Shown here: piece after piece, positions 12,890-44,240 of the stretch
Position numbering within the stretch: position 1 is the stretch's first letter
Layout of the letters: the number at the start of each line of letters is the position of its first letter
Assembly: GCA_017427185.1 (NCBI GenBank)
Contig: JAFRTJ010000019.1
Location: 1 to 50,515, forward strand
DNA: 50,515 bases
Direction of reading: 5' to 3'
Source of the DNA: Bacteroidaceae bacterium
GTDB lineage: Bacteria; Bacteroidota; Bacteroidia; Bacteroidales; Bacteroidaceae
The notes under the pieces: generated by a model
What the model saw: the letters and a program-made list of their open reading frames with translations, nothing else
Databases searched by the model: none
Told to the model about the DNA's origin: nothing
Program-made: the position numbers and the translations under genes

Positions 12890-13384
12890 ATGACACAGCC
12901 TGAATTGGAACATACGATCCTAACAATGCGCAGCAAGATGATGCGTATTGCTGCAGATTTCTTCCACAATGAAGAGGATGCCGAGGATATCGTGCAGGAG
13001 GTTTGTGAACGTATGTTGAAACGGGGCTGGCATGAGGGCGACGATGTGAAAGCTCTGCTTGTCAGAGCCACAAAGAATTTATGTGTGAGCGTATGGCGAC
13101 GTCAAAAAATCCGCGTTATGGAACAATTGGCAAGCATCCCAGAACCTGAAGGTTATCATGTTGCCGATGCGGCCCTGTTGCAACAAGAAGGGTACGAGGC
13201 ACTGACGGATGCTATCCGACAACTGCCTCCTTCGGAACAAAGACTTATCCGCCTGAAGTGCGAAGACATGGGTTTGGATGAAATATCAAGACAGACAGGC
13301 ATTCCTAAACGGTCGGTTAGTGTCATGCTCAGCACAGCCAGAAAACGATTGTTGACTATCTTAAAGAGAAAAGAAAATGATTGA
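12890..13384 (+). CDS. ECF-type RNA polymerase sigma factor (operon 1)
   Basis: The 164-residue protein has sigma region 2 (AADFFHNEEDAEDIVQEVCE, about residues 24-45) and region 4 with its helix-turn-helix (LDEISRQTGIPKRSVSVMLS, about residues 127-146). The start at 12890 is chosen because region 1.2/2 begins there; a longer frame from 12776 adds a non-homologous tail. TATATTTA at 12879-12886 would be a near -7 box but is too close to the ATG to serve this start. It overlaps the next gene by 8 bp. Its target promoters are not visible. Confidence 0.92.
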   Translation: MTQPELEHTILTMRSKMMRIAADFFHNEEDAEDIVQEVCERMLKRGWHEGDDVKALLVRATKNLCVSVWRRQKIRVMEQLASIPEPEGYHVADAALLQQEGYEALTDAIRQLPPSEQRLIRLKCEDMGLDEISRQTGIPKRSVSVMLSTARKRLLTILKRKEND

Positions 13385-13736
13385 TAAGAATCTGATACAA
13401 CAAGCCGCCGAGGAGATAGATATCTTCCAGGCTGATCTGACAGAGGAATACGACCGTCTGGCAGCACTACGTCAGCGTAGTCTGCGTCTCTGGCCATTGG
13501 TAGCAGCTGCCTGTGTGGCAGGTGTTGTTGCCATATTCCTCGCCCCTCCAAGAGGAAAAGAAGAAGTTGAGTTCAGCCCTCCTATAGAGAGTGCAATGCG
13601 CAATGATTGGCAATACGGAGAAGAACATTCGATGCTCGAAGCTCAGCTCCTCTATCAGCAGGAGATAAAGGAAAAGGGCAAGCGACTGGCTGCCTATATT
13701 CAAGAACAGCAAAAAACTATAGAAGAACGGTATTAA
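13377..13736 (+). CDS. Single-TM partner protein of ECF sigma factor (operon 1)
   Basis: The 119-residue protein has an N-terminal cytoplasmic part of about 38 residues, one membrane helix (LVAAACVAGVVAIFLA, about residues 41-57) and a charged, partly coiled-coil C-terminus (QEIKEKGKRLAAYIQEQQ). No zinc-binding anti-sigma motif is seen. Its 8-bp overlap with the sigma gene and its equivalence to the 211-residue protein at 43105-43740 (WVTAACVAGILAFFL helix) suggest an anti-sigma or signal-relay role. That role is an inference. Confidence 0.75.
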   Translation: MIDKNLIQQAAEEIDIFQADLTEEYDRLAALRQRSLRLWPLVAAACVAGVVAIFLAPPRGKEEVEFSPPIESAMRNDWQYGEEHSMLEAQLLYQQEIKEKGKRLAAYIQEQQKTIEERY

Positions 13737-13740
13737 GAAC

Positions 13741-14904
13741 ATGAAGACTAGACACATAATATATATGTCGCTCTCAGCAATGAGCTTTGTCTCATGCACC
13801 CAAAATCTTTCAGAGAAGCCGGAGCATGAAATAGAGAGCCTCACAGAGTTGTTTGACAGTTTGGCAATGCGTGGAGCTTACCCACGTTTTAATATTGATG
13901 CCTTTGGAGATTCTGTCATAACTGAAGAATACGACTATTTCAGTTGCCTAGAGGATACTATGGGGGTTGACAGCCTGGATGTAGAGGAGTGGTATAAGCG
14001 TACGTTGGATAATCTTCCATCCGCCATAGACACGATAATTATTGATGGCGAGAAACATGCGACCTATCGTGATATAAAGACGGAACGACGCATGATTGAG
14101 AATCGCATCTTTTTGCTGCACAACGTATTTCCTTTAGTGGAAAAATTATGTAAAAGAGCACGAGAAAGCTATCGTTATATTACTCCTGATTCTATAGACT
14201 ATAGTGTCACCATCGCGAAGGAACCACAGAAGTTGCTGAGTTTCAAACGCTATAAAGTTACGAATCGTGATTATGACAATCTATTCCTGCGGTATACAGT
14301 CGAGAAACCTCTCAAAATAAAAACAAAGTCCAGTGACCCTAAACCCGTCCATGCTTTGCTCAAACAATTCCTGGCTGAGCAGAAGGACGTTAAGCAGTAC
14401 GAGGTGAACTATGAATGGGACAAAGGAGTACCTTTTCCTACGGAAGGGGAGTTTTATCACTCTGTTTCGCAGCGAAGGAAGCGTGGACCTGATTCGTTGG
14501 CTGCTTCTTTGGTAACAGGAACCTGTTATTTTATTCCCTTGAAGGGATCGAAAGCAATAGAAAGATTGGCAGATGAGTTTTGCAACCGTATGATTCGACT
14601 TTCCGCAGAAAAGCCAGTTCATCGCTCCAGGCTGACTACAAGGTTCCTTCCCGGGTCAGACATGAAGAAAGAATTACAGAATTATATAATTCACGATAAA
14701 AACACAAACCTTTTTATCTACGAAATAAAAGCTCAAAGATGCGAGGATGGTCTTCACATTCTGGAGCTCAATAATCCACAAGGGCAGCGTTACACAATAC
14801 CCGTTAGTTGGTGGGCTGTGATGCGCACGCATAATACCAAGATATTCTGGCGAAACAACGACAACAATCTGCCTTTGCAGAAGGTATCAGAGAATCCTTT
14901 TTGA
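13741..14904 (+). CDS. Predicted lipoprotein of ECF operon 1
   Basis: The 387-residue protein has a signal ending in a plausible lipobox (SFVSC, C19). No known domain is recognised. The C-terminal half (about residues 205-380) has a pattern I also see twice in the 611-residue protein at 41260-43095: Y-x-W/Y stretch, a 'GTCYFIPLKG'-like strand, a helix, then 'LFIYEIK ... LHILEL ... YTIPVSWW'. It follows the TM protein by 4 bp, and its stop codon abuts the stop of the next, convergent gene with no gap. It is probably the envelope component sensed or controlled by the sigma factor. Confidence 0.75.
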   Translation: MKTRHIIYMSLSAMSFVSCTQNLSEKPEHEIESLTELFDSLAMRGAYPRFNIDAFGDSVITEEYDYFSCLEDTMGVDSLDVEEWYKRTLDNLPSAIDTIIIDGEKHATYRDIKTERRMIENRIFLLHNVFPLVEKLCKRARESYRYITPDSIDYSVTIAKEPQKLLSFKRYKVTNRDYDNLFLRYTVEKPLKIKTKSSDPKPVHALLKQFLAEQKDVKQYEVNYEWDKGVPFPTEGEFYHSVSQRRKRGPDSLAASLVTGTCYFIPLKGSKAIERLADEFCNRMIRLSAEKPVHRSRLTTRFLPGSDMKKELQNYIIHDKNTNLFIYEIKAQRCEDGLHILELNNPQGQRYTIPVSWWAVMRTHNTKIFWRNNDNNLPLQKVSENPF

Positions 14905-16641
14905 CTATTGTTCGAACTCGCGGATGAAACGTTCTTGGGGATGACCCTCGCGATGCATGGCTTTGTACTGCTTCATTAGGCGGCGTAGCTCTTCCCAGGT
15001 GCCGTCCTTCAGCGACTCGGCCTTGTGGCGCATGCATTGCAGGTAGAGAGGCTGCATTCTGACGCGGTCCACCCGTTCGCGAATCTCGTCGGACTCTGCT
15101 GCCTTGCGTGCCTCTTGGAGGATGGCAAAGGCTTTTTGGGTGAACTCGTCGCTATATATCTCATGATTCTCAGTGATATAGATGCCAAAATGCACGTCGG
15201 GCTTCACAAGTGACTGGCAGAGGCGGTAGTAATCCATGATGTGTGGAGCTGCCTTGCCGTAGAAGCCGTCGATGAAGATGTTGACCAGCGAATCCACATC
15301 TTGATCGGGGTTCCAGAGTAGCTGGTTCACTGTCCATGCTTTCATCTCGTCGAACTCAGCACCTGCCGACTGATACTGTGCCTCCTCGAAAACGCCGATT
15401 GCCTTATTCTCACCAAAGACTCGGATGTTGGGTCCCAACACTTGGAAGTTGGGCCAGGGAGCCATGTACTGGGCGTAATCCACGATATAATCCCAAATAA
15501 AAAGATGTGGAGCCAACTCTGCCCATCCCCGTAGGTCACGCATGAAGGCCTCGTTCTGCGGACAGCCGGCATCCAACGGATGAGCAAAGCAACACTCGAT
15601 GCTGCATAGGCGGATTACCACATTATCGCGAGGCTTGATGCCTGTAGGTGGTTGGCGTGAATACTGGTAGGCGAAGGTGCCCACATACTTGTCTGGAAAC
15701 TCTTCCTTAACGGCATCGGCTACTTGATTGACAAACCAGACGATGATGCCAGAGTGTTGTCCTCCGTACTGTTGCTCGATGGCAGCACACTTTTCGCATT
15801 GGCAGAAACGGAAATTGTCGTTCTGCGAGAGGCTGTAGATGCGGAAGTTGGGATTCTCGCGCATGTACTGCTTCAGACGTGTCTTGCAAAGTTCCAATAC
15901 CTCAGGATTTGAGAGGCAGAGCTGTCCATAACCGTTGTATCGCTGTCCGTCACGCAGGCAGAAGTATTCAGGATGCGTCTCGTAGAACTCTTTGGTTGGG
16001 ACGAGTTTTTCCATCGTGTGGGCACCCCAGTAGGCCTCTATGTTGCCGTATTCATTAGTCACGGGACTCCATTTTGTGTTCTCGCGAGTGTGGGCGCTCC
16101 ATTCGGGTGCACCCTCTGCCACAAAATAGTTGCTGTAGCGATAGCCTATGAAGGGGCTTTCGGTATGGTTCAGGCGGGGAAGTTTCCATTGCTTGTTCTT
16201 GGGGATGACGGTACACTTGGGTGTGAGCCAATGGATGCCCAGCTCACGTTCCAGGAAAGTGAAGACACCATACATCGTACCGCGTTGGGAACCTCCCCAA
16301 ATGAAAAGGTTGTGGCCTATGGTGCGGATCGTGAAGCTTTCATCGTCCTTGTTAGGCTTCTGTGCTCCTGTCAGGGTAGCCACGCGCTCGTTGTGACCTA
16401 CATAAATACAATGTCCTCTTGTGTTGATGTCTGTTGTGACAGGAAGTTCCACACCACTCACTTGGTTGATATACTTTTGCAGTTCGCGTGCTGCAGTCTG
16501 TTCCGAGGTCGATGCCTCAGCAGAAATAACAATCCGGTAATTGCTTTTTCCGTTGTGGAAGAGCCAGTTGGCTGCAATGCTCTGCATGGGCATTATTGCA
16601 GTCAAGAGCAGGAAAAGGGATAAGAGAAAAGTTTTCTTCAT
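14905..16641 (-). CDS. DUF4838-type exported glycoside-hydrolase-like protein
   Basis: The 578-residue protein has a clear signal peptide (MKKTFLLSLFLLLTAIMP). An N-terminal GH20b/GH67N-like beta domain (SEQTAARELQKYINQVSGVELPV) precedes a DUF4838 catalytic-like domain with FLERELGIHWLTPKC, SLSQNDNFRFCQCEKC and WFVNQVADAV. The paired Cys in CQCEKC suggest a metal site. Start 16641 is chosen because it begins the signal peptide; an upstream ATG at 16683 would add a polar 14-residue tail. A TATTTTTG -7 box (16681-16688) lies 40 bp upstream. The substrate is unknown; a role in glycan breakdown is likely. Confidence 0.85.
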   Translation of the reverse strand: MKKTFLLSLFLLLTAIMPMQSIAANWLFHNGKSNYRIVISAEASTSEQTAARELQKYINQVSGVELPVTTDINTRGHCIYVGHNERVATLTGAQKPNKDDESFTIRTIGHNLFIWGGSQRGTMYGVFTFLERELGIHWLTPKCTVIPKNKQWKLPRLNHTESPFIGYRYSNYFVAEGAPEWSAHTRENTKWSPVTNEYGNIEAYWGAHTMEKLVPTKEFYETHPEYFCLRDGQRYNGYGQLCLSNPEVLELCKTRLKQYMRENPNFRIYSLSQNDNFRFCQCEKCAAIEQQYGGQHSGIIVWFVNQVADAVKEEFPDKYVGTFAYQYSRQPPTGIKPRDNVVIRLCSIECCFAHPLDAGCPQNEAFMRDLRGWAELAPHLFIWDYIVDYAQYMAPWPNFQVLGPNIRVFGENKAIGVFEEAQYQSAGAEFDEMKAWTVNQLLWNPDQDVDSLVNIFIDGFYGKAAPHIMDYYRLCQSLVKPDVHFGIYITENHEIYSDEFTQKAFAILQEARKAAESDEIRERVDRVRMQPLYLQCMRHKAESLKDGTWEELRRLMKQYKAMHREGHPQERFIREFEQ

Positions 16642-16680
16642 ATACATTATAATAATAGGTTTCTCATTTGAATCACTTCG

Positions 16681-16688
16681 CAAAAATA
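16681..16688 (-). promoter_or_regulatory. -7 box of the DUF4838 gene
   Basis: TATTTTTG on the minus strand. No clean TTTG is found 19-20 bp upstream, so this is a partial promoter match. Confidence 0.5.
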
Positions 16689-16800
16689 AGCATAATAGGC
16701 GAAATGTCGCAATCTTTTTGTCTTCAAATTAGGAATTTTATTGAAGTTTCGCTTGTTCCGTTTGTTTTTTTGCAAATTGCCGTTATTTTCCTCTCTTTTT

Positions 16801-16831
16801 TTTGCAGTTTCGATGATAATGCCTATTTTTG
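16801..16831 (+). promoter_or_regulatory. Promoter of the T9SS-tail exported protein
   Basis: TTTG at 16801-16804 and TATTTTTG at 16824-16831 are 19 bp apart. The start codon is 49 bp downstream. Confidence 0.75.
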
Positions 16832-16880
16832 CTGTGGTGTGTGATGTAAGCAGCTAAATACAACCACTAAATTAGAACCT

Positions 16881-17939
16881 ATGAAAAGAGTCATTTTTCT
16901 TCTGATGATAGCCATGATGACTACTCGTTTCTCCGCATTCGCCCAGAATGAGGAGGCAGGATTGTATGTGGGTGATGTTTCGAATTCTGGTTGCAAATCA
17001 CAAACAAGAAGTACAAGTGTCAGGGGAAATACCATTTTGAAGCTGACACGTGATGGCGATAACATATTCGGAGAACTCACCGATTTTTATGCAAATTGTG
17101 CAATCAGTGGAATCTCTGTCGAGTGTAAAGAAGACGACCATACGCTTAATATCATGGCGGAAGAACAATTCGAGGGATTTGAAAGGGCTGAATGTATATG
17201 CCCATACAATGTTTCCTTCACCTTATTCAACGCTAAAGAAGAGCAATACACTCTCATCGTGAATAATAAGAATCTAGGCAATGTGTCATTTGAGACTCAT
17301 TCTGTTGTGGAAATAGACATAACAACTTTGGAACAAGCCTATGAGGAAGGTTTTGAATATCCAGTCAAGATAAGAAATTTCAATTTTTATGAGTTGACGC
17401 AATGGATAAAACCATGTGAAGTTAGGAAACCAGAATTGGCGGCTTTCCATTATGCCAACTATGGAACGGAAGAGTTTTTGTATCTCAACTACAGACTACC
17501 CAAAGAATTTACCTATCTGGACAGTCAAGCAAAACTCGATGCAGACAGCACACTTGTGTTAGAAATTATTACAGACGGCAGTTCTGTGGAGGAATCTGAA
17601 AGGATTGCCTCTTTAACGATGGAGGTTGTTAATGTGGTTAAACCACTGAAGCACCTCAGACTGATTCACAAAGTGGTGGCAATAGGTGAGAATGGCATGA
17701 TGGACAAAGAAGTCATCACCCTGTACGAGGGTGACTTGAATTGGGTGTATGATCAAGTGAAAGCTATCGAGCTGAAAGATCTTTCTGAATGTAGGAAAAA
17801 TACATCTTCTAATGTCCAAAGCTTTATCTCCAATTCCCCTAACGAAGGCAGCCTTTATGACTTCACAGGTCGCCAAATCATAGGGCAACCGCAACGTGGC
17901 TTGTATATCCGTAACGGACGCAAGATAGTCATCAAATAG
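16881..17939 (+). CDS. Exported protein with T9SS-like C-terminal tail
   Basis: The 352-residue protein has a signal peptide (MKRVIFLLMIAMMTTRFSAFAQ). The mature part is rich in beta strands with several Cys (SGCKS, ANCAISGISVECK, AECICPY). It ends in LYDFTGRQI ... RGLYIRNGRKIVIK, which resembles the short C-terminal sorting tails common in Prevotella and related genera. Surface or outer-membrane delivery by type IX secretion is therefore suggested but not shown. The central domain is not recognised. Confidence 0.75.
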   Translation: MKRVIFLLMIAMMTTRFSAFAQNEEAGLYVGDVSNSGCKSQTRSTSVRGNTILKLTRDGDNIFGELTDFYANCAISGISVECKEDDHTLNIMAEEQFEGFERAECICPYNVSFTLFNAKEEQYTLIVNNKNLGNVSFETHSVVEIDITTLEQAYEEGFEYPVKIRNFNFYELTQWIKPCEVRKPELAAFHYANYGTEEFLYLNYRLPKEFTYLDSQAKLDADSTLVLEIITDGSSVEESERIASLTMEVVNVVKPLKHLRLIHKVVAIGENGMMDKEVITLYEGDLNWVYDQVKAIELKDLSECRKNTSSNVQSFISNSPNEGSLYDFTGRQIIGQPQRGLYIRNGRKIVIK

Positions 17940-17984
17940 TGTCAAAAGTCATTGGAAAGGAACAGCAAGGAGGAAGTCTTATAG

Positions 17985-18020
17985 ACGAAAAAAGGAAGCA
18001 GGCTGGCCTCCTTTTTTCGT
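17985..18020. terminator. Bidirectional terminator
   Basis: ACGAAAAAAGGA (17985-17996) pairs perfectly with TCCTTTTTTCGT (18009-18020), a 12-bp stem with a 12-nt loop and T-runs on both strands. It lies between two convergent genes. Confidence 0.85.
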
Positions 18021-18043
18021 GAATGTAGTGAGAATTTTCCTCC

Positions 18044-18436
18044 TTAGAGCTCTCGCTTAATCTTCTCTGCAATCTCCTGGAATTCCTCTGGAGTAAGCTT
18101 CAAATGGGGATTTGTGAAGCGCATGTCGGCTTCGCTCTGCATGGGAACCAGATGGATGTGAGCATGAGGAACCTCAAGACCAAGCACGCACTGGCCCACT
18201 TTCACGCAGGGAATGGCTTTCTTGATGGCGATGGCCACCTTCTTGGCAAAAACCTGCAAGCCGGCTATTTCTTCATCTGTAAGGTCGAAGATGTAGTCCA
18301 CCTCACGTTTGGGAATTACCAATGTATGGCCCTTCTGCAGAGGGCTGATGTCGAGAAATGCATAGTAATTCTCATCCTCGGCAATCTTATAGCTGGGAAT
18401 CTCGCCTGCTACAATCTTTGAAAAAATGCTTGCCAT
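18044..18436 (-). CDS. HIT-family nucleotide-binding hydrolase
   Basis: The 130-residue protein carries the histidine triad HAHIHLVP and the N-terminal FSKIVAGEIPSYKI ... DISPLQKGHTLVIPK typical of HINT/HIT nucleotide phosphoramidases and hydrolases. The start at 18436 begins the conserved MASIFSKI; an ATG at 18463 lies inside greA. It follows greA by 19 bp and is co-transcribed with it. Confidence 0.92.
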   Translation of the reverse strand: MASIFSKIVAGEIPSYKIAEDENYYAFLDISPLQKGHTLVIPKREVDYIFDLTDEEIAGLQVFAKKVAIAIKKAIPCVKVGQCVLGLEVPHAHIHLVPMQSEADMRFTNPHLKLTPEEFQEIAEKIKREL

Positions 18437-18455
18437 AACAATGCTTTTTATGGGG

Positions 18456-18926
18456 TTATTCATCGAAACTGATATTCAACACTTCCAGTTGAATGGTACC
18501 TGCTGGCACCTTTACTTCTGCCACATCGCCCACTTTCTTGCCCAAGAGTCCCTTGGCAATGGGTGTCTCCACGCTGATTTTACCAGCTTTCAGGTCGGCT
18601 TCAGTGGCACTGACGATGCGGTACTTCATCTTCATGCCCGTCTTGGCGTTTTTCAGCTCAACTGTAGCCAGAATCTGCACCGTGTCCGTGTCCATGTGGG
18701 TGGTGTCGATAATCTTTGCCTCCATGATTGTCTTCTTCAGGATGGCAATTTCTGTTTCCAACTTTCCCTGCCACTCCTTGGCGGCATCGTATTCTGCATT
18801 CTCAGAGAGGTCTCCCTTGTCGCGAGCCTCTGCAATCGCGGCACTGGCTGCAGGACGATCCACGCTCTCCATGTGCCTTAGTTTGGCTACCAATTCATCG
18901 TAGCCCTTCTGTGACATATAAGCCAT
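18456..18926 (-). CDS. greA: Transcript cleavage factor GreA
   Basis: The 156-residue protein rescues backtracked RNA polymerase. It has the N-terminal coiled coil with the acidic tip (GDLSENAEYDAAKE) and the C-terminal FKBP-like domain (SVETPIAKGLLGKKVGDVAEVKVPAG). The length is normal. It is the first gene of a two-gene operon with the HIT protein. Confidence 0.97.
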   Translation of the reverse strand: MAYMSQKGYDELVAKLRHMESVDRPAASAAIAEARDKGDLSENAEYDAAKEWQGKLETEIAILKKTIMEAKIIDTTHMDTDTVQILATVELKNAKTGMKMKYRIVSATEADLKAGKISVETPIAKGLLGKKVGDVAEVKVPAGTIQLEVLNISFDE

Positions 18927-18974
18927 ATCTATTTAATAATGTATAAAGTATCAGTTTCTGACGACACCGAAAAA

Positions 18975-18996
18975 GAAAAGAATCCCGACTCTTTTC
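18975..18996 (-). promoter_or_regulatory. Small hairpin in the greA leader
   Basis: GAAAAGA and TCTTTTC flank an 8-nt loop. On the minus strand this 7-bp stem is followed by a T-rich run. It lies between the greA promoter and start codon and could weaken transcription. The evidence is slight. Confidence 0.3.
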
Positions 18997-19038
18997 AGCC
19001 GGAACCCTTTACTGTCCTTTTTGTTATGTCTGCTGGTG

Positions 19039-19069
19039 CAAAGGTATGGATTATTTTCTAATCCACAAA
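19039..19069 (-). promoter_or_regulatory. Promoter of greA-HIT
   Basis: On the minus strand TTTG (19066-19069), a 19-bp gap and TACCTTTG (19039-19046) give a full match. The leader is about 105 nt. Confidence 0.8.
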
Positions 19070-19133
19070 CTTTTTGACCACAAATTTTGTCAAAACTGTT
19101 AAATCTGTAAAAAACAAACAGAGGTTGCAGAAC

Positions 19134-19835
19134 CTATCTGAGTTTCTCGATGACAGGAAGCAAGAGACGCTCCATGATGGCATAGCCCTCTGCATTGGGA
19201 TGTACGCCTGGCCTATCGTTGGCATATGCAGGATTCATCTCTGTGCCATCGGCTGTTACGAGAGCACTGAAATAGTCGACGTAGGGGATCTTGTTCTTCT
19301 TGGCATACGCCTGGACGCGAGCGTTCAAGTGGCGTATCTTTGTCATCGCGTCGGTCACTTCAGGCCTCCAGCTAAAGCCACCTGCCGGCAGACAGCTGGT
19401 CAGTATAACCTTGATTTTGTTGGCACGAGCAATATCCACCATACTCAGCACGTTTCCAAAGGTTTTGTCTTCATCGTATGGACCCGTATTGAGTGCGATA
19501 TCGTTTGTTCCGTAGTTGATGACTACAATCTTTGGCTTCAGGTTCACAACATCCTCGCGGAAACGCAGTAGGAACTGGTAGCTGGTCTGTCCCCCAATAC
19601 CACGGCCAATGATATAGGGATGGTCTTTGAAAAACTGAGAGCTGATGCGTGGCCAACCATCTGTGATGGAGTTTCCCATCAGGACTACACGCTTTGCTTT
19701 CTTGTCAGGAGCTCCCAATTCAACATTTGCTTGGCCGTAACGCCCGAAATTGGCAAACTTGTCATGTGTTTGAGCTAGCAGCGAAGGTGCGCAGAGGCAC
19801 AGGATAGCTGCAAAGAATAGAATACGTCTTTTCAT
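19134..19835 (-). CDS. Exported SGNH/GDSL esterase
   Basis: The 233-residue protein has a signal peptide ending near SLLAQ. Catalytic blocks are intact: block I MGNSITDGW (Ser56), block II GIGGQTS, block III YGTNDIA and block V DRPGVHPNAEGY (Asp/His). The family includes acetyl-xylan, rhamnogalacturonan acetyl and other carbohydrate or lipid esterases, so the substrate is open. TAACTTTG at 19881-19888 (minus strand) is its likely -7 box. Confidence 0.9.
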   Translation of the reverse strand: MKRRILFFAAILCLCAPSLLAQTHDKFANFGRYGQANVELGAPDKKAKRVVLMGNSITDGWPRISSQFFKDHPYIIGRGIGGQTSYQFLLRFREDVVNLKPKIVVINYGTNDIALNTGPYDEDKTFGNVLSMVDIARANKIKVILTSCLPAGGFSWRPEVTDAMTKIRHLNARVQAYAKKNKIPYVDYFSALVTADGTEMNPAYANDRPGVHPNAEGYAIMERLLLPVIEKLR

Positions 19836-19880
19836 AATACACTTTTATTTTATTTGATTGTTTTCTTTTATTTTCGTATG

Positions 19881-20085: not shown

Positions 20086-20104
20086 CTTTTAATGGAAACC
20101 TTTG

Positions 20105-36697: not shown

Positions 36698-39600
36698 ATG
36701 AGAAGATTCCTAAGATGGATGGCACCCGTGGGGCTGCTCGTCCTGACAGCCTGCGGAAATCCGGCAGACGCACCTGACGGCGTGGTGGTTCGCATGAGGC
36801 ATCCCCACCAGACAGAGGATACGCCCCTCAAGATGGTCAGGCTCCAAGTGTTGGGCGAGAAGATAATCCGTGTGACTGCCACCGCTGAGGAGAGATTCGC
36901 TGACAGGCAGAGCCTCATTATTGTGCCTCAGCAGAAGAACGTGTCGTATGAGGTGGAAGAACACGATGATACCGTGACTTTAACGACTCGAAAGATGAAA
37001 GTCAACGTGTTGTCTTCCACTGGCAAAGTCTGGTTCACGGATCTGGAAGGAAATCTTATCCTGAGCGAGACGGAAAGCGAAAGCAAGACTTTCCGTCCCT
37101 ATGAGACAGAGCAGACGTCGGCCAATGGGAAAGCCCAGCAGTACCACGGATGGACTACCCGTCTGGTCTTCGATTCTCCAGCGGATGAAGCCTTCTATGG
37201 ACTCGGACAGCATCAGGCGGACGAGTGGAACTACAAGGGACGCAACGAGGAACTCTTCCAGTACAATACCAAAGTGAGTGTTCCATTCGTGGTGAGCAGC
37301 CGAAATTATGGCGTGTTGCTGGACAGCTACTCGCTCTGCCGCTTTGGCAACCCAAAGGATTACAGCCAGTTGCAGGACATCTTCACTCTCTACGACAAAG
37401 AAGGGGAGGAAGGGGCCTTGACAGGTACCTACACCTCGCCTGACAGGGAAACGCTTGTCCGCCGTGAGGACAGTCTCTACTTCGAGAATCTGAAATCCAT
37501 CAGGAACCTGCCTGAATTCCCTCTCTACAATGCCAAAGTAAGCTACGAGGGCGAACTGGAGCCTAAGGAGAGTGGCGAATACCGTTTCATACATTATTAT
37601 AGTGGCTACCAGCAGATTTACATTGACGGGAAACCCATCTACTCCACGCTGACGCAACAGGATGCTCCCATCTGGCGGACTGCCTGGAATCCCAATGCCA
37701 GGAAATTCAGCATGCAGATGGAGGCTGGCAAGCGTTATCCCCTCAGGGTGGAATGGACTCCTGATGGAGGCGAAGCCTACTGCGGACTCCGTGCCTTGGC
37801 TCCTGTGGGCAGCGAGGAGCAGCAGAAACTCTCCCTGTGGAGCGAGATGTCGCAACAGTTGGATTATTATTTCGTATGGGGCAACGATTTGGATGAGGTC
37901 ATTCATGGGTATCGCACGTTGACAGGCAAGGCTCAGGTGATGCCTCGCTGGCTGATGGGCTACTGGCAGAGTCGCGAGCGATACAAGACCCAGAGCGAAA
38001 TATTGGATGCGCTGGACGGTTTCCGCACTCGTCAGTTACCCATCGACAACATCGTGATGGACTGGAACTATTGGGTGCTGGACAGTTGGGGGGCCTTCGA
38101 GTTCGACCCAGAACGATTCTGCGATCCTAAAGGAATGATAGACACCATACATGCCAACCACGCCAAGATCATGATCAGTTGCTGGCCCAAATACTACCTG
38201 ACGGTGGACAATTTCAGGGAGCTCAACGACAAGGGTTACATCTATCAGCAGAGCATTCGCGACAGCCTCAACGACTGGTTGGGTTTCAAGTATGCTTTCT
38301 ATGACGCTTATGCTCCTGAGGCACGAAAGATTTTCTGGCGACAACTTTATGAGAAGCTGGGCACGATAGGTATGGATGCCTGGTGGATGGACGCGTCTGA
38401 GCCCAACGTACGAGACTGCACGGACATGGAGTATCGTAAGCTGCTCTGCGGCCCTACGGAATACGGCAGCAGCGACGAGTTCTTCAATGCCTACAGTATC
38501 GTCAATGCTGAGGCCATCTACGATGGTCAGCGTGGCTACGAGACGGCTTTGGAGGAGCATCGAAAAGTGTCTGACGAGGAAGTCAGCAGCATGTGGCTGC
38601 AGGAACATGCCTCGTGGAACCAGAACGGATTCGGCAACACTTTCAGCCCCAACAATACACGAGTCTTTCTCCTGACCCGCAATGGATTCGCTGGAGAGCA
38701 ACGCTACAGCACAGCCACGTGGAGCGGCGACATTGGCACCCGCTGGGAAGACATGAAGGCACAGATAACTGCTGGACTGAATTTCAGTATCGCAGGCATT
38801 CCCTTCTGGAGTCAGGACATTGGAGGATTCTCCGTAGAGAAGCGGTTCGAGGCTGCTCAGCGGCTCTTCGACGAGACACGTCAGGAGAATGCCGACTTGA
38901 AGGAATGGCGCGAACTGAATGCCCGCTGGCACCAGTGGGGAGCCTTCACTCCCATGTATCGCGCTCATGGTCAGTTCCCTTATCGCGAGCCTTGGAACAT
39001 CGCTCCTGAAGGGCATCCTGCCTACGAGAGCATCCGCTACTACCTGGAACTTCGCTACCGCCTGATGCCTTATCTCTACAGCATGGCTGGCTGGGTACAC
39101 TTCCAGGACTATACCATGCTGCGTCCTCTGGTGATGAGTTTCGGCTATGACAAGAACGTGAAGGACATTGGCGATCAATTCATGTTTGGCCCTTCGCTGA
39201 TGGTGAATCCCGTCTACACCTACGGGGCACGTTCTCGCGAGGTTTACTTCCCCAGCGGGCACATCTGGTATGACTTCTATACGGGTAAGGTAGTAAGTCA
39301 GGGTGGAGAGAAGAAAATCGTGGAGGCTCCCTACGGCCGTGTCCCTGTCTTCGTCCCCAGCGGTGCCATCCTGCCTTTTGGCCCCAGCATGCAATGGAGC
39401 GATGAGAAGCAAGCCGAAAACATCCGTCTTTATGTTTATCAAGGAGCCAATACGGACGGTGAGTTCCTTCTCTATGAAGACGAGAACACCAACTATGGCT
39501 ACGAGGCAGGCCGCTATGCCATGATTCCCGTTTCTTATGAGGAAGCATCCCAGCGCCTGACCGTTGGTGATCGTCAGGGCGAATTCCCTGGTATGCTGAA

Positions 39601-39727
39601 AGACCGCCTCTTCACCATCGTTTTCGTCTCTCCTGACAATCCTGTAGCTTACGATCCTGAGGCACAGGGAATAGAGGTGAAATACGAAGGGAAAAAGATA
39701 GAGAGAAGCGCAGAAAAGGGATTGTAA
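36698..39727 (+). CDS. Glycoside hydrolase family 31 with PA14 insert, likely alpha-xylosidase
   Basis: The 1009-residue lipoprotein (lipobox LTAC, Cys19) has a GH31 N-terminal sandwich (DEAFYGLGQHQADEWNYKG), a PA14 insert at about residues 240-370 (ESGEYRFIHYYSGYQQIYIDG) and the catalytic barrel. MDWNYWVLDSWGAFEFDPERF and the nucleophile Asp565 in DAWWMDASEPN are intact. A PA14 insert in GH31 is known from the alpha-xylosidases of Bacteroides ovatus and Cellvibrio that act on xyloglucan. With the GH3 gene before it, xyloglucan or isoprimeverose breakdown is a fair inference. Confidence 0.92.
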   Translation: MRRFLRWMAPVGLLVLTACGNPADAPDGVVVRMRHPHQTEDTPLKMVRLQVLGEKIIRVTATAEERFADRQSLIIVPQQKNVSYEVEEHDDTVTLTTRKMKVNVLSSTGKVWFTDLEGNLILSETESESKTFRPYETEQTSANGKAQQYHGWTTRLVFDSPADEAFYGLGQHQADEWNYKGRNEELFQYNTKVSVPFVVSSRNYGVLLDSYSLCRFGNPKDYSQLQDIFTLYDKEGEEGALTGTYTSPDRETLVRREDSLYFENLKSIRNLPEFPLYNAKVSYEGELEPKESGEYRFIHYYSGYQQIYIDGKPIYSTLTQQDAPIWRTAWNPNARKFSMQMEAGKRYPLRVEWTPDGGEAYCGLRALAPVGSEEQQKLSLWSEMSQQLDYYFVWGNDLDEVIHGYRTLTGKAQVMPRWLMGYWQSRERYKTQSEILDALDGFRTRQLPIDNIVMDWNYWVLDSWGAFEFDPERFCDPKGMIDTIHANHAKIMISCWPKYYLTVDNFRELNDKGYIYQQSIRDSLNDWLGFKYAFYDAYAPEARKIFWRQLYEKLGTIGMDAWWMDASEPNVRDCTDMEYRKLLCGPTEYGSSDEFFNAYSIVNAEAIYDGQRGYETALEEHRKVSDEEVSSMWLQEHASWNQNGFGNTFSPNNTRVFLLTRNGFAGEQRYSTATWSGDIGTRWEDMKAQITAGLNFSIAGIPFWSQDIGGFSVEKRFEAAQRLFDETRQENADLKEWRELNARWHQWGAFTPMYRAHGQFPYREPWNIAPEGHPAYESIRYYLELRYRLMPYLYSMAGWVHFQDYTMLRPLVMSFGYDKNVKDIGDQFMFGPSLMVNPVYTYGARSREVYFPSGHIWYDFYTGKVVSQGGEKKIVEAPYGRVPVFVPSGAILPFGPSMQWSDEKQAENIRLYVYQGANTDGEFLLYEDENTNYGYEAGRYAMIPVSYEEASQRLTVGDRQGEFPGMLKDRLFTIVFVSPDNPVAYDPEAQGIEVKYEGKKIERSAEKGL

Positions 39728-39901
39728 TAGGCTGCAAGATTCAATTTTGTCAAGATTTCAGAAGATGTTTCTTCGATAAGGAAAGAGGATTGACCTTCTC
39801 TCTGCCAACCTCTTTCCCTGTAAGGGACTTGCTTGCATAAACATCAGATTAATAGACTGCTATATCAAGTCACGGCAATCTTTCTTTTCCCTTTGAAAAG
39901 A

Positions 39902-39989
39902 CAACGCGTTGTCTTTGAGATTTCAACGTGTTGTCTTTGAGATTTCAACGTGTTGAGTTGGCAAAGTCAACGTGTCCCATCCACTGATG
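39902..39989. repeat. Array B: four CAACGTGTTG-type boxes, 22-bp period
   Basis: Boxes begin at 39902 (CAACGCGTTG, a perfect palindrome), 39924, 39946 (both CAACGTGTTG) and 39968 (CAACGTGTCC): exact 22-bp spacing as in array A at 12634-12721. The first two units share the spacer TCTTTGAGATTT. The array follows the GH31 gene in a gene-free gap. Confidence 0.85.
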
Positions 39990-40036
39990 GGAATATCCTC
40001 CTCCTGCCCCTCATTGATTTTTTTCATGAACGCAAA

Positions 40037-40180
40037 AATGCCCTACACTCTACACCAGCACCATGTAAGACCTTGATGGTCAGCAATTTGCACGGGTGTA
40101 GGGCGGTGTAGGTAGCCTACACCCATGTATCCTGTTGATAGCCATCGTGTTACGGGGTCCGGTGTAGGGTGTAGGCTATT
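40037..40180. repeat. GTGTAGG inverted-repeat element
   Basis: GCCCTACACTCTACACC starting near 40040 faces GGTGTAGGGTGTAGGC near 40160-40176 as an imperfect inverted repeat. Inside it, GGGTGTAGG and CCTACACCC form a second one near 40095-40123. The heptamer GTGTAGG or its complement recurs at least six times. No protein-coding evidence is seen. It may be a non-autonomous mobile or recombination-prone element. Confidence 0.6.
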
Positions 40181-40207
40181 TTTGAGTGGATGCGAATTAT
40201 GATGAAC

Positions 40208-40322
40208 ATACAGATACAGATACATACAGATGTTTTCAGGAAAATTCTCACGCGTACATATATGCGCATATGTACGCAGGAGTATTTTTTCAGAATATTG
40301 CCGTATCATCTGTATCTGTATT
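40208..40322. repeat. Large palindromic element
   Basis: Outer arms ATACAGATACAGAT (about 40208-40222) and ATCTGTATCTGTAT (about 40308-40322) enclose GCGTACATAT (40252-40261) and ATATGTACGC (40268-40277), a perfect 10-bp stem with a 6-nt loop. The whole 115 bp could fold as one imperfect cruciform. Together with the GTGTAGG element just before it, this accounts for most of the 600-bp gap between GH31 and the DUF6734 fragment. Confidence 0.6.
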
Positions 40323-40326
40323 TCCC

Positions 40327-40539
40327 TCATTCCCTTCGTGCCCATAAGGGAAAGCGCAGCTTATCGATGAGGATGCGCTTTCCCTCGGAGTCGGTATAAA
40401 GCGCAACCTCATCGTAGTGCTCGCGTAGACTGAGGCAACTCAATGCTCAGGACATCAGATTGTACTCGGGGGGAAGCCAGCCGAAGGTGCTTCTTGTCAA
40501 ATCGGCTTTTGCCGTCCAGAAGGTCTGTACGATTCTCAT
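40327..40539 (-). pseudogene. Fragment of a DUF6734-family gene with in-frame stop
   Basis: Reading the minus strand from ATG 40539, codons 1-30 begin MRIVQTFWTAK and reach GWLPPEYNLMS. Codon 31 is TGA, where I expect TGG (Trp), and the frame then continues ALSCLSLREHYDEVALYTDS to codon 70. This is the N-terminus of the DUF6734 family (about 300 residues in Bacteroidales, glycan-gene associated). The similarity ends near codon 64, where the palindromic element begins. It is thus broken twice: by a nonsense change and by loss of the rest. It starts 3 bp after the stop of the 228-residue gene. Confidence 0.8.
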
Positions 40540-40542
40540 CTC

Positions 40543-41229
40543 CTATTTTGAAAACGATTGCACAAAGGTTCCTGGTTGAAGATGCTGGTAATTGTTTTTT
40601 GTTTTCGTGAAAATACGGATGATAGAGAATTCTGGAAGATCCTTCAATGTCTCTATGTCAGTCGATTCTGTCATTTCAACACGATATATGAATTCTGGAT
40701 CAAATTTATACAGTTTCTCTCTGTTTGGGATAATGAATTTATTGACGGTATAGATGCATCTTTCTTTTGCCTCTGGGAAATATTTCTTTTTGATATCCTC
40801 AAGGGTCATCCAATCAATTTTTTTGCCATTCTTGTATGATTTGCGATTGAGGATGATGTTGAATTTGAATGGGACACCATCAAAAACGGTGTCAGGATGT
40901 TCAACATATCGGTTTATTAAAAGAGAATCGTTATTATAGCCTATGCCTTTAACCATGAAAGGATATTCGTTGTCTTCAATCCATCCATCATCAAACTCTT
41001 TCAGACTATCGCAGTCCACACCTAACATCACGGGACCAACAAAAACTCCGTCTATGCAATGTCCTACGCTGCGGATAGCAAGAAATTTATCGGGCATATA
41101 TTCATATCCATGGTTTTTAGTGCGACCATTATTTGGCTCATATTCTGTGTAGTATTGTGGTGAATATTGTTGGGCATACACAGCGTTGTTGATTAATGCC
41201 CAAAATGCTAACCAGAAGATCTTTTTCAT
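40543..41229 (-). CDS. Exported protein of ECF operon 2, TonB-plug-like end
   Basis: The 228-residue protein has a signal peptide (MKKIFWLAFWALINNAVYAQ). The core is not recognised. The C-terminal part (YTVNKFIIPNREKL ... FDPEFIYRVEMTES ... SIIRIFTKT) has the rhythm of a TonB plug domain ('I-x-x-I-x-V ... I-x-I-x-T-K'), which occurs in many soluble Bacteroidetes exported proteins. It follows the 611-residue gene by 30 bp and is the last intact gene of the operon. Confidence 0.65.
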   Translation of the reverse strand: MKKIFWLAFWALINNAVYAQQYSPQYYTEYEPNNGRTKNHGYEYMPDKFLAIRSVGHCIDGVFVGPVMLGVDCDSLKEFDDGWIEDNEYPFMVKGIGYNNDSLLINRYVEHPDTVFDGVPFKFNIILNRKSYKNGKKIDWMTLEDIKKKYFPEAKERCIYTVNKFIIPNREKLYKFDPEFIYRVEMTESTDIETLKDLPEFSIIRIFTKTKNNYQHLQPGTFVQSFSK

Positions 41230-41259
41230 AATCGTTTGTTTTTATGTTTATAAATGAGG

Positions 41260-43095
41260 TTATTTCCGTTTGTTCAAATACTTTTTCTTGCCATATCTGT
41301 AACTGATGATGTTGTACCATTCTTCAGGAATGAGATATTTGCCCTCCACTTTGTCGATGCAAAGCAAGCGGAACTGATTTGTCTTTTTGTCACTCCAGCC
41401 GATGATGCGGTCGGTGATGCGTACGTTGCTCTCATCTAATACGATGTGAAAGGATTGGTTTCTGTTTGAGAAAGTTTGATTAAACATATAATCCATAAAA
41501 ATTGCATGTTTCTGAAGATTATTGGCCGATGTCAAGACATAGAGCCTTCCATCCACTTTCCCCATGCTTTCCGGGTGCAACTTCTTGCCATATTCGTAAT
41601 GGACTTTATGTTCCTCAATACAGGCCGAGTCTTTCATCTGAGCGATGAATCTGTCTACCCATCGGGTGTCGAACGGCATAACATGGGGTGAAGGGTTGGG
41701 CTGGTCGATAATAACCTGCATGTAAGCCGTAAGACTGTCTCCTTTACCATAAAATTTGCAGAGAAGGTGTCGAATGGGCTTTGAATTCTCTTCGCCCGTT
41801 AGTTCCAGGGTGTCTCCTTCGGCCGTATGCGATTCCTTATGCTGGATGTTGACGAGCGGATTGTTTACCAGTTGCCTCCTGATTTCGTTGACAGATTGTC
41901 TGTCAATATTTGACTGGATTGTCTGGATTGTACGATACGACTCTCCACCGATCCACTCAAGTCTCTTGTGATTGTTTTTAAAAAAAACATAGATTGTATT
42001 CCCCCAAAATGGTTCACTCGATACCACGGGGGGAAGTACCTGTTGCAATTTCTCATAGTCAGGCACACGTTCAACCTTTCCATGATCGTAGGAAAGCATT
42101 GTCTCGTAGTCATTGGGCAGAGCAAATGTGGAGTCTACATGGTCAACAAAAAGGATGGTATATCGGCCAAATATATCTTTCTTGCTATAAACATGCTCAT
42201 GGGTTACATCGGGGGAACTATATTTGATTCCTTGGTTAGGGGTTTTAAATATAATGGTTTTCTTCAGACCTCTATCATATATATAATCGAATTGTCTGTC
42301 CCGATGACTTAGCAGATAATTGCTCAGTTCCTGATGCAGGGTGATGGCAGCATTATCGGCTTTCTCTTGGGGGATGATGTAGAGGATGCCGCTGCAAGCC
42401 CCCTCCAATACTTTGAATCTGTCACCTCCCTCGAATTGCGTATTGTCAAGGGAGACATAGGTGTATCTCGTCAGGTGATCCAGTCCATCTTCCTGAGTAT
42501 TGTAGCTGTAAGAAACTGGATACGCCTCGCCACCAAACTCTCTCGCTATCTTGGCTATCATGGGTTTGACAGGTTTAATGTCAAGTACTTTGCCGCAACT
42601 TTCCTGATCCGTACTATTAGAATACCTGACTTCTATTCTGCTTTCCCCTTTTCTTTGGGGATAATAATAGAAAAGAGCCACTTCTTTGCCTTCGTAACAG
42701 AAATTCCTGTCATCGCCAACGAGTTTTGTGGTTCTGCGTGAATCTTCGGACAAAGACAACGCATAGCGGATACTGTCTTCCGTGCCATTAGTCGTTTGCA
42801 GATGGTGGCAAGCCACGGCATCGGCAGAGGCATCGATGAAATACTGCATAATGGTATCCTTCAGCTGTTGCAGGTGGTAACGGTCAATCGGTTTGTCCCG
42901 TTGGGTATAAAAAGATTTATTCCATACCCAAATCTCGTAGATATCATCGTTCGTGCGATTGACAGTAGAATTGGACAGTTCTTCGGGATGGTTCTTCTCC
43001 AGGTACTGTATCAGCTGACGGATGCTGTTATCGTTTTGCGCATCGATAATGAGGGCTTGCATCAGTATAGTCAAGATAAAAATATAGCGTCTCAT
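41260..43095 (-). CDS. Large exported protein of ECF operon 2, duplicated module
   Basis: The 611-residue protein has a signal peptide (MRRYIFILTILMQALIIDAQ). No known domain is recognised. Two tandem modules can be made out by eye: residues about 190-345 (CSGILYIIPQEKADNAAITLHQEL ... IFGRYTILFVDHVDSTFALPNDYETM) and residues about 435-600 (GRLYVLTSANNLQKHAIFMDYMF ... NQFRLLCIDKVEGKYLIPEEWYNI). The shared end is a 'lxxhDxVxxxxxLPxxYxxxxSYxxGK' pattern. The lipoprotein in ECF operon 1 seems to have one such module. It is 9 bp downstream of the one-TM protein. Confidence 0.75.
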   Translation of the reverse strand: MRRYIFILTILMQALIIDAQNDNSIRQLIQYLEKNHPEELSNSTVNRTNDDIYEIWVWNKSFYTQRDKPIDRYHLQQLKDTIMQYFIDASADAVACHHLQTTNGTEDSIRYALSLSEDSRRTTKLVGDDRNFCYEGKEVALFYYYPQRKGESRIEVRYSNSTDQESCGKVLDIKPVKPMIAKIAREFGGEAYPVSYSYNTQEDGLDHLTRYTYVSLDNTQFEGGDRFKVLEGACSGILYIIPQEKADNAAITLHQELSNYLLSHRDRQFDYIYDRGLKKTIIFKTPNQGIKYSSPDVTHEHVYSKKDIFGRYTILFVDHVDSTFALPNDYETMLSYDHGKVERVPDYEKLQQVLPPVVSSEPFWGNTIYVFFKNNHKRLEWIGGESYRTIQTIQSNIDRQSVNEIRRQLVNNPLVNIQHKESHTAEGDTLELTGEENSKPIRHLLCKFYGKGDSLTAYMQVIIDQPNPSPHVMPFDTRWVDRFIAQMKDSACIEEHKVHYEYGKKLHPESMGKVDGRLYVLTSANNLQKHAIFMDYMFNQTFSNRNQSFHIVLDESNVRITDRIIGWSDKKTNQFRLLCIDKVEGKYLIPEEWYNIISYRYGKKKYLNKRK

Positions 43096-43104
43096 TATTG
43101 TCGA

Positions 43105-43740
43105 TTATTTTTGATTATCAATCTTTTGAAATACCTCATCGCATTCCCGTTGCAGATTCTCAGACAAAACCATGTACTCCTCCATCGGGTCTGGACGAGA
43201 GTTCACACCGAACAGGCTGTCAACAGAAATCAGGTCGCTCTGGTCGTACTCTTCTTCTTCGTTGTCTGTGGTGGATTGCATTGGATGGACACCAGCAAGG
43301 AAGGAGTCAGGCAGCACGTCTCCTGTCTCCATCTGCTGCGGTTCTTGCGGTTCTTCCTTTACGGGGCTACTGATTTGTGCCGTTGCCTGATCCGTTGGAA
43401 CTTCCCTTCCACTCTTTGGGAGAGTCAGGAAGAACGCAAGAATGCCAGCCACGCAGGCTGCCGTTACCCAAGGCCACAAAACAGCGCGACGAGGTTTCCG
43501 TTGGGTAGCCAACATGATTTGGTCAAACTCCTGAGCCTTCTCTTCTGACAAGTTGAAATCATCGGCTGGGCGGGAAGTGGCGAGTACCAATTGGCGCACC
43601 CTCTCTTCATCGGCAGATAAAGTCTCGCGAGTGTGCAAATAGAAGTCAACAAGTGCCTGTTCCTCGGCTACAGAAGTTTCCGCATCCAGATAACGCTGAA
43701 TAAGTTGCTGACGCAATTCTCTGTTATTTAGATCATTCAT
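43105..43740 (-). CDS. Single-TM partner protein of ECF sigma factor (operon 2)
   Basis: The 211-residue protein has an N-terminal helical part of about 88 residues (QQLIQRYLDAETSVAEEQALVDFY, the start typical of Bacteroidetes anti-sigma-like proteins, without zinc ligands), one membrane helix (WVTAACVAGILAFFLTL, about 91-107) and an acidic, low-complexity periplasmic tail. The start codon overlaps the sigma stop codon by 4 bp (ATGA type). It probably restrains or tunes the sigma factor; this is inferred from position and topology. Confidence 0.8.
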   Translation of the reverse strand: MNDLNNRELRQQLIQRYLDAETSVAEEQALVDFYLHTRETLSADEERVRQLVLATSRPADDFNLSEEKAQEFDQIMLATQRKPRRAVLWPWVTAACVAGILAFFLTLPKSGREVPTDQATAQISSPVKEEPQEPQQMETGDVLPDSFLAGVHPMQSTTDNEEEEYDQSDLISVDSLFGVNSRPDPMEEYMVLSENLQRECDEVFQKIDNQK

Positions 43741-44240
43741 TTTTGTCCTCCTTTTCTCAGTATTTCAAGCACAGCTCTCCGCGCTGCGGAAATCATGGTC
43801 TTCGTGCTTTGTTTAGTGGTGTTGCAAATGGTTGAAATCTCGTCTAAATTCATGCCCTCGGCTCGCATCTCCAGCATACGACGCTGGGTGGCAGGCAACT
43901 GGCTGAGAGCCAATTGAATTATAGTCTCCATATCTTGTGTGATGAGGTTTTGATCGGCCTTTCGGAAGTCCTGTATATCAGTACCTTCCAATGGTTCTAA
44001 CCTCATGCGCTGGTGTCTCAAATGATCGACACATACGTTTTTCGTTATGGTAACAGCCAACGCTTCAAGACTCTTATATGAATCCAGTTGCTCGCCCATC
44101 TGCCAAAGTCTGAAGAGAGCATCTTGCACGATGTCCTCAGCCTCCTCCACCATTTGTTGCTCTGCCAAGAATCGCTCACATAGTTTTATCAACCGTGGGC
44201 GCACATCGTTGGCTAACTGCTCAAACGCTTTTATCGTCAT
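43737..44240 (-). CDS. ECF-type RNA polymerase sigma factor (operon 2)
   Basis: The 167-residue protein has region 2 (AEDIVQDALFRLWQ, about residues 34-47) and region 4 (LSQLPATQRRMLEMRAEGMNLDEISTICNTTKQSTKTMISAARRAV). It is the first gene of a four-gene operon. TACCTTTG at 44279-44286 (minus strand) is its -7 box. It is a paralogue in arrangement, and loosely in sequence, of the sigma factor at 12890. Confidence 0.93.
   Translation of the reverse strand: MTIKAFEQLANDVRPRLIKLCERFLAEQQMVEEAEDIVQDALFRLWQMGEQLDSYKSLEALAVTITKNVCVDHLRHQRMRLEPLEGTDIQDFRKADQNLITQDMETIIQLALSQLPATQRRMLEMRAEGMNLDEISTICNTTKQSTKTMISAARRAVLEILRKGGQK

Follow-up and report, generated by a model that had tools for sequence, protein, structure and literature searches.

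The window (the whole 50,515-nucleotide stretch of Bacteroidaceae DNA that was analysed) carries two operons whose coordinates confirm the gene order of the original prediction: an ECF sigma factor gene, a gene that overlaps it and codes for a protein with one transmembrane (TM) segment, and a gene for an exported protein. The overlap in operon 2 is between the sigma (44240-43737) and one-TM (43740-43105) genes. The features are as follows.

12853..12882, plus strand: operon 1 promoter-like element, ACTTAACATTTC-N10-GCGTTATA, which stops 8 nt short of the sigma start
12890..13384, plus strand: operon 1 ECF sigma factor (Pfam Sigma70_r2 and r4_2; best NCBIfam model sigma_PG0214, under its cut-off)
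13377..13736, plus strand: operon 1 one-TM protein, 119 aa, predicted anti-sigma, TM at about residues 41-57
13665..13688, plus strand: RGERL-type box IKEKGKRL, residues 97-104, in the operon 1 C-terminal tail
13741..14904, plus strand: operon 1 exported protein, 387 aa, predicted lipoprotein (Cys19), one module
40543..41229, minus strand: exported-looking ORF, 228 aa, behind operon 2, a candidate operon member
41260..43095, minus strand: operon 2 exported protein, 611 aa, signal peptide, two modules (about residues 21-350 and 364-611)
43105..43740, minus strand: operon 2 one-TM protein, 211 aa, predicted anti-sigma, TM at about residues 91-107
43108..43191, minus strand: operon 2 one-TM C-terminal tail, EYMVLSENLQREC type, without a strict RGERL box
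43737..44240, minus strand: operon 2 ECF sigma factor (Pfam Sigma70_r2/r4)
44264..44291, minus strand: operon 2 promoter-like element, TAGTTTACCTTTG-N7-TTTACGTC

ECF sigma factors are plentiful in such genomes, this one holding about 18 strong matches. For the two sigmas considered here the best NCBIfam model is sigma_PG0214 (NF058625), at 102.9 and 118 bits, both under its curated cut-off of 130 bits. The one-TM and exported proteins of both operons match nothing at curated Pfam or NCBIfam cut-offs, and the 228-aa ORF (41229-40543) found no family in a Pfam search. Both one-TM proteins contain AACVAG, as had been noticed, and Pfam and NCBIfam searches bore out the statement that neither a matching anti-sigma family nor a TonB receptor is present. 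A third operon coding for a sigma, a one-TM protein and a module protein lies elsewhere in the genome. Judged by normalised similarity (sigma 0.23, one-TM N-terminus 0.12, tail 0.10, exported protein 0.02), operons 1 and 2 are not close paralogues.

The exported proteins had been said to share a pattern, once in the 387-aa and twice in the 611-aa protein. This count stands at profile level, where hhalign relates the 387 family to the 611 family (probability 94, E 1.5e-7) and to its N half (95, E 4e-8), and the N half of the 611 family to its C half (98, E 4e-14 and 8e-13 in two comparisons). The literal string IxxxxxLPxxY is absent from both proteins, the conserved end being [LI]Pxx[WY]. On these profiles the exported proteins form one superfamily and the common module is real, whereas plain BLASTP finds no relation between the 387-aa and 611-aa proteins (E 0.21). 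An absent profile relation, or a match to a known anti-sigma system, had been named as the outcomes that would tell against the original prediction; neither was observed, as the profiles relate the proteins and no curated anti-sigma family was matched. Sequence searches of Pfam and the PDB gave no match to the superfamily, a large group of exported proteins missing from Pfam. Both proteins are predicted to be alpha/beta; no PDB chain was matched by sequence, and fold matches are weak. Neither protein matches DUF4252 or DUF6108 in Pfam, and hhalign against small sets of DUF4252 (PF14060) and DUF6108 (PF19603) aligned short N-terminal stretches only. A simple rule predicts signal peptides for 61 of the 62 module proteins; Cys19 of the 387-aa protein is invariant in 19 alignment rows, and this protein looks like a lipoprotein. 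Of 399 Bacteroidaceae genomes, 80 carry the superfamily, and none of the genomes sampled beyond Bacteroidaceae does.

The survey of relatives that had been suggested showed that the trio recurs, and 62 operons were compared. By automatic calling, 73 of 112 module genes lie directly after a sigma and a one-TM gene, in loci that were gathered through the module, not randomly; because some loci overlap, a few of the 112 are truncated duplicates. The claim of an undescribed envelope system is supported in part: a recurrent trio carries an unnamed module, but operons 1 and 2 are not alone in their gene order, since further sigma/one-TM/exported trios in the same genome have other partners (one is DUF6108) and Porphyromonas gingivalis has sigma/DUF4252 runs. 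PMC10101095 gives these runs (PG_0214-0216 and PG_0985-0987) as a sigma, a putative anti-sigma or hypothetical protein, and DUF4252.

These operons show the one-TM protein to be chimeric: the N-terminal part co-varies with the sigma, whereas the final 40 residues do so with the exported protein. Mantel values on rank similarity across the 62 operons are 0.63 for sigma and N-terminus and 0.52 for tail and module, with the four cross terms at 0.14-0.24. In partial tests, the tail retains 0.50 with the module given the sigma and 0.12 with the sigma given the module; the N-terminus retains 0.62 with the sigma given the module and 0.06 with the module given the sigma. Among the 45 pairs with module similarity above 0.5, sigma similarity falls below 0.25 in 12 and tail similarity in none; conversely, of 88 pairs with sigma similarity above 0.6, 32 have module similarity below 0.25, and none has so low a value for the N-terminus. 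Four DNA comparisons place the switch point in or after the TM segment: L047/L153 are 95% identical across 1624 bp from a start within the TM codons, L118/L050 and L049/L050 reach 85% identity, also starting within the TM, and L151/L137 are 95% identical across 1431 bp, from the sigma into the linker, stopping short of the tail. As the N-terminus follows the sigma and the other end follows the partner, the three proteins probably relay a signal through the membrane, and from these sequence comparisons the halves of such relays appear to have been swapped in evolution.

An RGERL-type box, whose pattern was composed after the module tails had been read, occurs in 51 of 62 tails with a module next and in 0 of 46 other sigma/one-TM tails (34/39 versus 0/32 after removal of similar proteins; Fisher 4e-15). 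Seven of the 11 module-next tails without the box belong to the 611 family, which holds operon 2; the EYMVLSENLQREC-type tail is alike in seven operons of this family. Ahead of the sigma gene lies a two-block element shared within sigma clusters, that of operon 1 being common to 5 loci with an operon-1-type one-TM N-terminus. The element of each operon is itself, at 0 mismatches, the sole genome site within 3 mismatches; a control search with the pattern reversed also yields one site, so the search is blind to weaker targets.

According to PMC7406223, class I anti-sigmas (ASDIs) adjoin only 6% of Bacteroidetes ECF sigma factors. No curated ASDI family in Pfam or NCBIfam matched the one-TM proteins by sequence profile. 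In FecI-FecR-FecA (PMC9249621) a sigma is joined by a membrane regulator, N-terminus in the cytoplasm and C-terminus in the periplasm, and by an envelope partner; in FecIR and its Pseudomonas kin the signal enters at the regulator's C-terminal end and the regulator is proteolysed. The trio is alike in having a sigma, a predicted one-TM membrane regulator and a predicted envelope partner, and its gene order and N-terminus/sigma co-variation would fit a FecIR-type one-TM regulator that adjoins its sigma and may have an N-terminus specific for it. It differs in that the one-TM tail is short and the partner is not a TonB receptor: at cut-off, Pfam shows in neither exported protein the TonB-dependent receptor and signalling domain that make up the third FecIR component, and no FecR model is among the Pfam/NCBIfam matches of the one-TM proteins up to E 1. 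In gene order, and probably in the group of its sigma, whose best though sub-threshold NCBIfam model is named after PG0214, the trio agrees with PG_0214/0215/0216 and PG_0985/0986/0987; PMC11410844 lists a Prevotella bivia sigma with DUF4252 genes of adjacent locus tags. DUF4252, however, has no profile relation to the module and is paired with another tail. Same-order pairs of an ECF sigma and a membrane anti-sigma are also described from Bacteroides and Phocaeicola, namely the EcfO-type pair (PMC9308784) and those with Dma dual-membrane-spanning anti-sigmas (PMC13088901); these anti-sigmas are single proteins reaching from cytosol to outer membrane. Here the predicted anti-sigma and the exported part are separate, the one-TM proteins having 119 and 211 aa and one hydrophobic segment. 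In the sigma-E system RseA is a one-TM anti-sigma whose proteolysis is gated by a periplasmic partner, RseB. The trio would be analogous in its predicted one-TM anti-sigma and periplasmic partner, but no relation came out of searches of curated families and PDB sequences or of fold comparison, which gave weak matches only.

Each operon probably encodes a three-part envelope-signalling switch, made of a sigma, a predicted anti-sigma and an exported partner, and the best reading is that it works much as FecIR or RseAB do, without their known parts. The N-terminal part of the one-TM protein would keep the sigma in the cytoplasm, while in the periplasm the exported protein would probably dock on the tail and serve as the signal-input subunit. 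A change in its state, through ligand, damage or titration, would unlock the anti-sigma, probably by regulated proteolysis as with FecR. The released sigma would then probably use the conserved element to transcribe the operon that encodes it, so raising the supply of its sensor. We favour "docked = off" as the sign. Recombination within the TM segment, or shortly behind it, would create new couplings of input to output.

The same tail-module coupling would be expected if the exported module, which might be an effector and not a sensor, were merely gauged by the tail, free module on the tail keeping the sigma off and its consumption or titration causing more to be made. This homeostat, from which the switch differs mostly in emphasis, seems to us rather unlikely. 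Tandem module copies in some loci (e.g. L149, L113) speak for it, as does the element whose only close site precedes the operon itself, so that the regulon may extend no further than this operon; but other targets could have promoters with over 3 deviating bases, and several sigma clusters are common to operons with differing third genes, so the sigma type is not tied to one effector. Another account is that tail and module, being adjacent on the DNA, would be co-transferred by recombination even without contact, the tracts that move the module gene carrying the last codons of the preceding gene and the tail having no role. Unbroken homology from the TM to the module end in three chimeric comparisons agrees with this. 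We nevertheless hold it to be improbable, as the box statistics, the tails and their codons, and the tails of other partners argue against it: in 124 of 125 pairs conservation is higher in the tail than in the 40 residues ahead of it, the box persists even where the modules can hardly be aligned, its codons vary synonymously, and no tail/module break occurs among the 45 alike-module pairs. For other partner families, in 17 pairs with unlike sigmas and homologous third genes, no tail falls below the 93rd percentile of the background, and 15 of the 17 reach at least the 99th.

It strikes us as very improbable that the one-TM protein serves as a membrane anchor or co-activator instead of an anti-sigma, with the module being a common envelope protein that does something unconnected. 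No curated anti-sigma family matches the one-TM proteins, and the sole "anti-sigma factor" model listed, NF052375, is far under its cut-off (14 of 100 bits); yet their genes overlap the sigma genes, their N-termini co-vary with the sigmas without exception among the 88 pairs, and the P. gingivalis gene adjoining sigma PG_0214 is named a putative anti-sigma factor in PMC10101095.

Returning to the three-part switch, one might speculate on a plug-and-play code in Bacteroidota, in which the last ~40 anti-sigma residues would be an address read by one exported-partner family, recombination at or close to the membrane segment would let each address, standing for a stimulus, be wired to any of the sigmas, standing for responses, and DUF4252, DUF6108, Spy-like, TonB-receptor-like and further unnamed partners would have addresses of their own, the RGERL-module one being the largest alphabet here; taken together, we give these proposals an even chance. 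If true, such a code would allow input partners to be assigned to anti-sigmas from sequence, and would explain the rewiring of envelope sensing within a lineage by half-swaps at the membrane. The natural chimeras are a ready set for testing it and for sensor building in gut commensals. Other arrangements of the module speak against the switch: it lies upstream of four sigma/one-TM pairs without the RGERL box (L093, L099, L103, L133), has no sigma called nearby in L114 and, twice, in L145, and in genus g186 follows a BlaI/M56-type pair instead.

Operons 1 and 2 have the positions and gene order first proposed for them, with a clear ECF sigma factor in both (Pfam, NCBIfam) and the AACVAG motif in both one-TM proteins, the predicted anti-sigma factors; neither these nor the exported third-gene proteins of the two operons reached a curated Pfam or NCBIfam cut-off. 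The original prediction also held that the exported proteins share a pattern. Their homology is real by profile, but the literal IxxxxxLPxxY is found in neither protein. Profile comparison joined the family of the 387-aa protein of operon 1 (19 relatives found, 18 aligned with the query) to the N half of the family of the 611-aa protein of operon 2 (36 found, 33 aligned; probability 94, E 1.5e-7); it also linked the 611-aa protein's halves with one another (probability 98, E 4e-14). A third family (55 found, 49 aligned), consisting of lipoproteins likewise encoded behind a sigma factor and a one-TM protein, is related to the 387-aa family and to both 611-aa halves (97, 99.7 and 99.6), and contig C47 of the same genome carries a third operon belonging to it. 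We call the domain common to these proteins the module. Cys19 of the 387-aa protein is invariant across the alignment of query and 18 relatives. Although the predicted structures of the two exported proteins are usable (mean pLDDT 81 and 80), fold comparison of both models gave no convincing match, and a PDB sequence search with the proteins gave no matching chain. Elsewhere in the genome, a 465-aa exported protein behind a sigma/one-TM pair (L035, contig C70) bears a loose likeness to the module by eye, but the two do not align.

Read across 67 called one-TM genes, the tails revealed a common C-terminal box, approximately (D/E)-I-R-x-R-G-E-R-L-x-x-x-I (the RGERL box), behind N-termini of many unlike kinds. 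Module-less tails were taken from the other sigma operons of the same genome, the sigma operons of six relatives and extra pairs in the fetched loci. After filtering, 109 sigma/one-TM pairs were available in all, and before correction the box was counted in 50 of 61 tails with a module next to the pair versus 1 of 48 without. After correction (L139 dropped, L046 relabelled as having its module behind a miscalled 12-aa ORF, and four module-upstream pairs set apart), the box is present in 51 of 62 tails with a module next, in 0 of 42 with another or no called third gene and in none of the 4 set apart. Because the pattern was written after the module tails were seen, it is the absence from these 46 that carries the information. 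Removal of similar proteins left 34 of 39 versus 0 of 32 (Fisher test, 4e-15). Seven sigma clusters contain operons both with and without a module: in six the box occurs in module members only (two module members of one cluster are without it), and the seventh, to which operon 2 belongs, has the strict box in none of its members. Among pairs of intermediate module similarity, the tail is more conserved than the preceding 40 residues in 124 of 125 (mean 0.40 versus 0.19). In 50 tails the box glycine, fixed by the pattern, is encoded by all four codons, and the arginine and leucine codons vary.

Co-variation was measured on 62 operons using 17 sigma clusters, after exclusion of L139, whose frame is broken, of an artefact of 45 aa, of rows lacking a called sigma gene or a whole module, and of doubtful tails (including L127, L129 and L055). 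Sigma similarity correlates with that of the N-terminus (0.63) and tail similarity with that of the module (0.52), versus 0.14 to 0.24 for the four cross terms. All six correlations lie at the permutation floor (p = 0.002) because related operons share descent, and it is therefore the contrast between terms that counts, not p. In partial correlations the two strong links stay (0.62 and 0.50), whereas the cross links mostly vanish (0.06 and 0.12). Of 45 pairs with module similarity above 0.5, the sigma factors fall below 0.25 in 12 and the tails in none; conversely, among 88 pairs with sigma similarity above 0.6, the modules fall below 0.25 in 32 and the N-termini in none. The eight relatives of the 387-aa protein in the set are distributed over four sigma clusters.

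The same division is visible in DNA-level breakpoints compared in four operon pairs. L047 and L153 share a 1624-bp stretch of 95% identity that starts within the TM codons and runs to the module end, with nothing matching upstream; L118 and L049, each compared with L050, follow this pattern at 85% identity. In L151 and L137 the arrangement is reversed: 95% identity extends over 1431 bp covering the sigma gene, the N-terminus, the TM and part of the linker, and the linker holds a further matching piece of 39 bp. Their identity stops 126 and 75 nt ahead of the last 40 codons, beyond which the modules are dissimilar (0.14) and the tails weakly alike (0.30), with the box in both. In all four pairs the switch point is in or after the TM and ahead of the tail.

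The tail rule was also examined in 34 operons with other third genes, where 17 of 522 unlike-sigma pairs have homologous third genes. Their tails all lie at or above the 93rd percentile of the rest, 15 of the 17 at or above the 99th, and 16 of the 17 N-terminus pairs are inside the background's 95th percentile. The strongest tail pairs are L044/L047, L187/L219, L187/L209 and pairs whose long third genes resemble, by eye, TonB receptors with STN-like tails, and which would constitute a Fec-type positive control; the weakest are L032/L214 (98th) and L044/L195 (93rd). Five loci (L216, L202, L193 and, in the same genome, L018 and L037) encode a small exported protein, Spy-like by eye, behind the sigma/one-TM pair and have a conserved tail of their own type, approximately DYAMxDNxDIYxxL. 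Another own-genome locus (L033, contig C57) has the order sigma, one-TM, DUF6108, 512-aa exported-looking and 283-aa protein, with a tail ending in LQLNEFFGK.

These sequence comparisons fit a one-TM protein acting as a membrane adaptor with two specificities, for the sigma factor on one side and for the exported partner on the other. The module would be the input subunit, docking on the one-TM tail, and the sigma factor would drive its own operon. Such a three-part switch would be likened in its working to RseAB and also to FecIR, but the tested Fec features are absent (no TonB receptor, no FecR domain), in agreement with the earlier view that the operons do not fit the FecIR type. As for the system being undescribed, the gene order is already known from the DUF4252 operons of P. 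gingivalis (PMC10101095); the literature searched showed neither the module family nor the tail box nor the swapping of halves.

Alignment of upstream DNA in four sigma clusters revealed in each its own two-block element. That of operon 1, ACTTAACATTTC-N10-GCGTTATA, is found in the five loci of its type (the cluster's other members being outside the alignment), and all 11 of the third-operon type carry CAACCTTTTG. The operon 2 element, a TAGTTTA..CTTTG-like block plus TTTACGTC, stands out clearly in six operons with the module and is degenerate in L034 and L153, where the third gene is a different one; the fourth cluster's element is present in most of eight. Genome-wide, with up to 3 mismatches allowed, the consensus of operon 1 and that of operon 2 each match a single site, the one at their own operon, without any mismatch; the search is blind to weaker targets, since backwards-pattern controls also find one site each. 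The result suggests autoregulation, with other close sites few or absent, but falls short of proof.

Automatic ORF calling places 73 of 112 module genes immediately after a sigma/one-TM pair; the total of 112 counts some truncated second copies where loci overlap. Reading by hand 13 module genes in 12 loci, drawn from the remaining or doubtful ones, we found an RGERL-like tail upstream of the module, missed by the caller, in five more (L150, L155, L136, L051, L053), and one in L127 in a different frame from the called one-TM gene; L128 and L142 also have such a tail. Several cases are genuine exceptions. The tail of L129 is degenerate. In a subgroup (L133, L099, L093, L103) the module lies ahead of the sigma pair and no box is present in the tail; L134, with its one-TM gene cut off, resembles it. 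The gene preceding the module in L133, L134 and L099 ends in a common DFRRTLYWEPN block. The module of L114 and two in L145 have no called sigma gene nearby. In genus g186 (L082:20-2901), the place of the sigma/one-TM pair ahead of the module is taken by a Penicillinase_R (BlaI-like) repressor and a Peptidase_M56 (BlaR1-like) membrane protein, and L111, L131 and L123 look alike; in such loci the module may work in a second type of signalling system. Around operon 2 lie three further ORFs:

40543-41229, minus strand, 228-aa ORF, exported-looking, following the 611-aa gene after 30 nt
44807-45391, plus strand, 194-aa ORF beside operon 2, no Pfam match at E 0.001
45537-48347, minus strand, 936-aa ORF beside operon 2, no Pfam match at E 0.001

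The 228-aa ORF, which has no Pfam family, may be a fourth gene of operon 2.

A profile combining 18 diverse module members matched, at E 0.001 and with at most five candidates per genome scored, 80 of 399 family genomes, spread over 14 of 30 genera; of the 207 high-quality genomes it matched 33. In an order-level sample, where six listed genomes are inside the family and the rest of those shown belong to other families, the only match at E 1e-5 among 393 genomes was the one studied here; the module is thus confined to the family, as far as sampled. Ten loci of named relatives come from uncultured Bacteroidales entered under the names Bacteroidales, Bacteroidaceae, Prevotella or Prevotellaceae; some are labelled as rumen or omasum samples.
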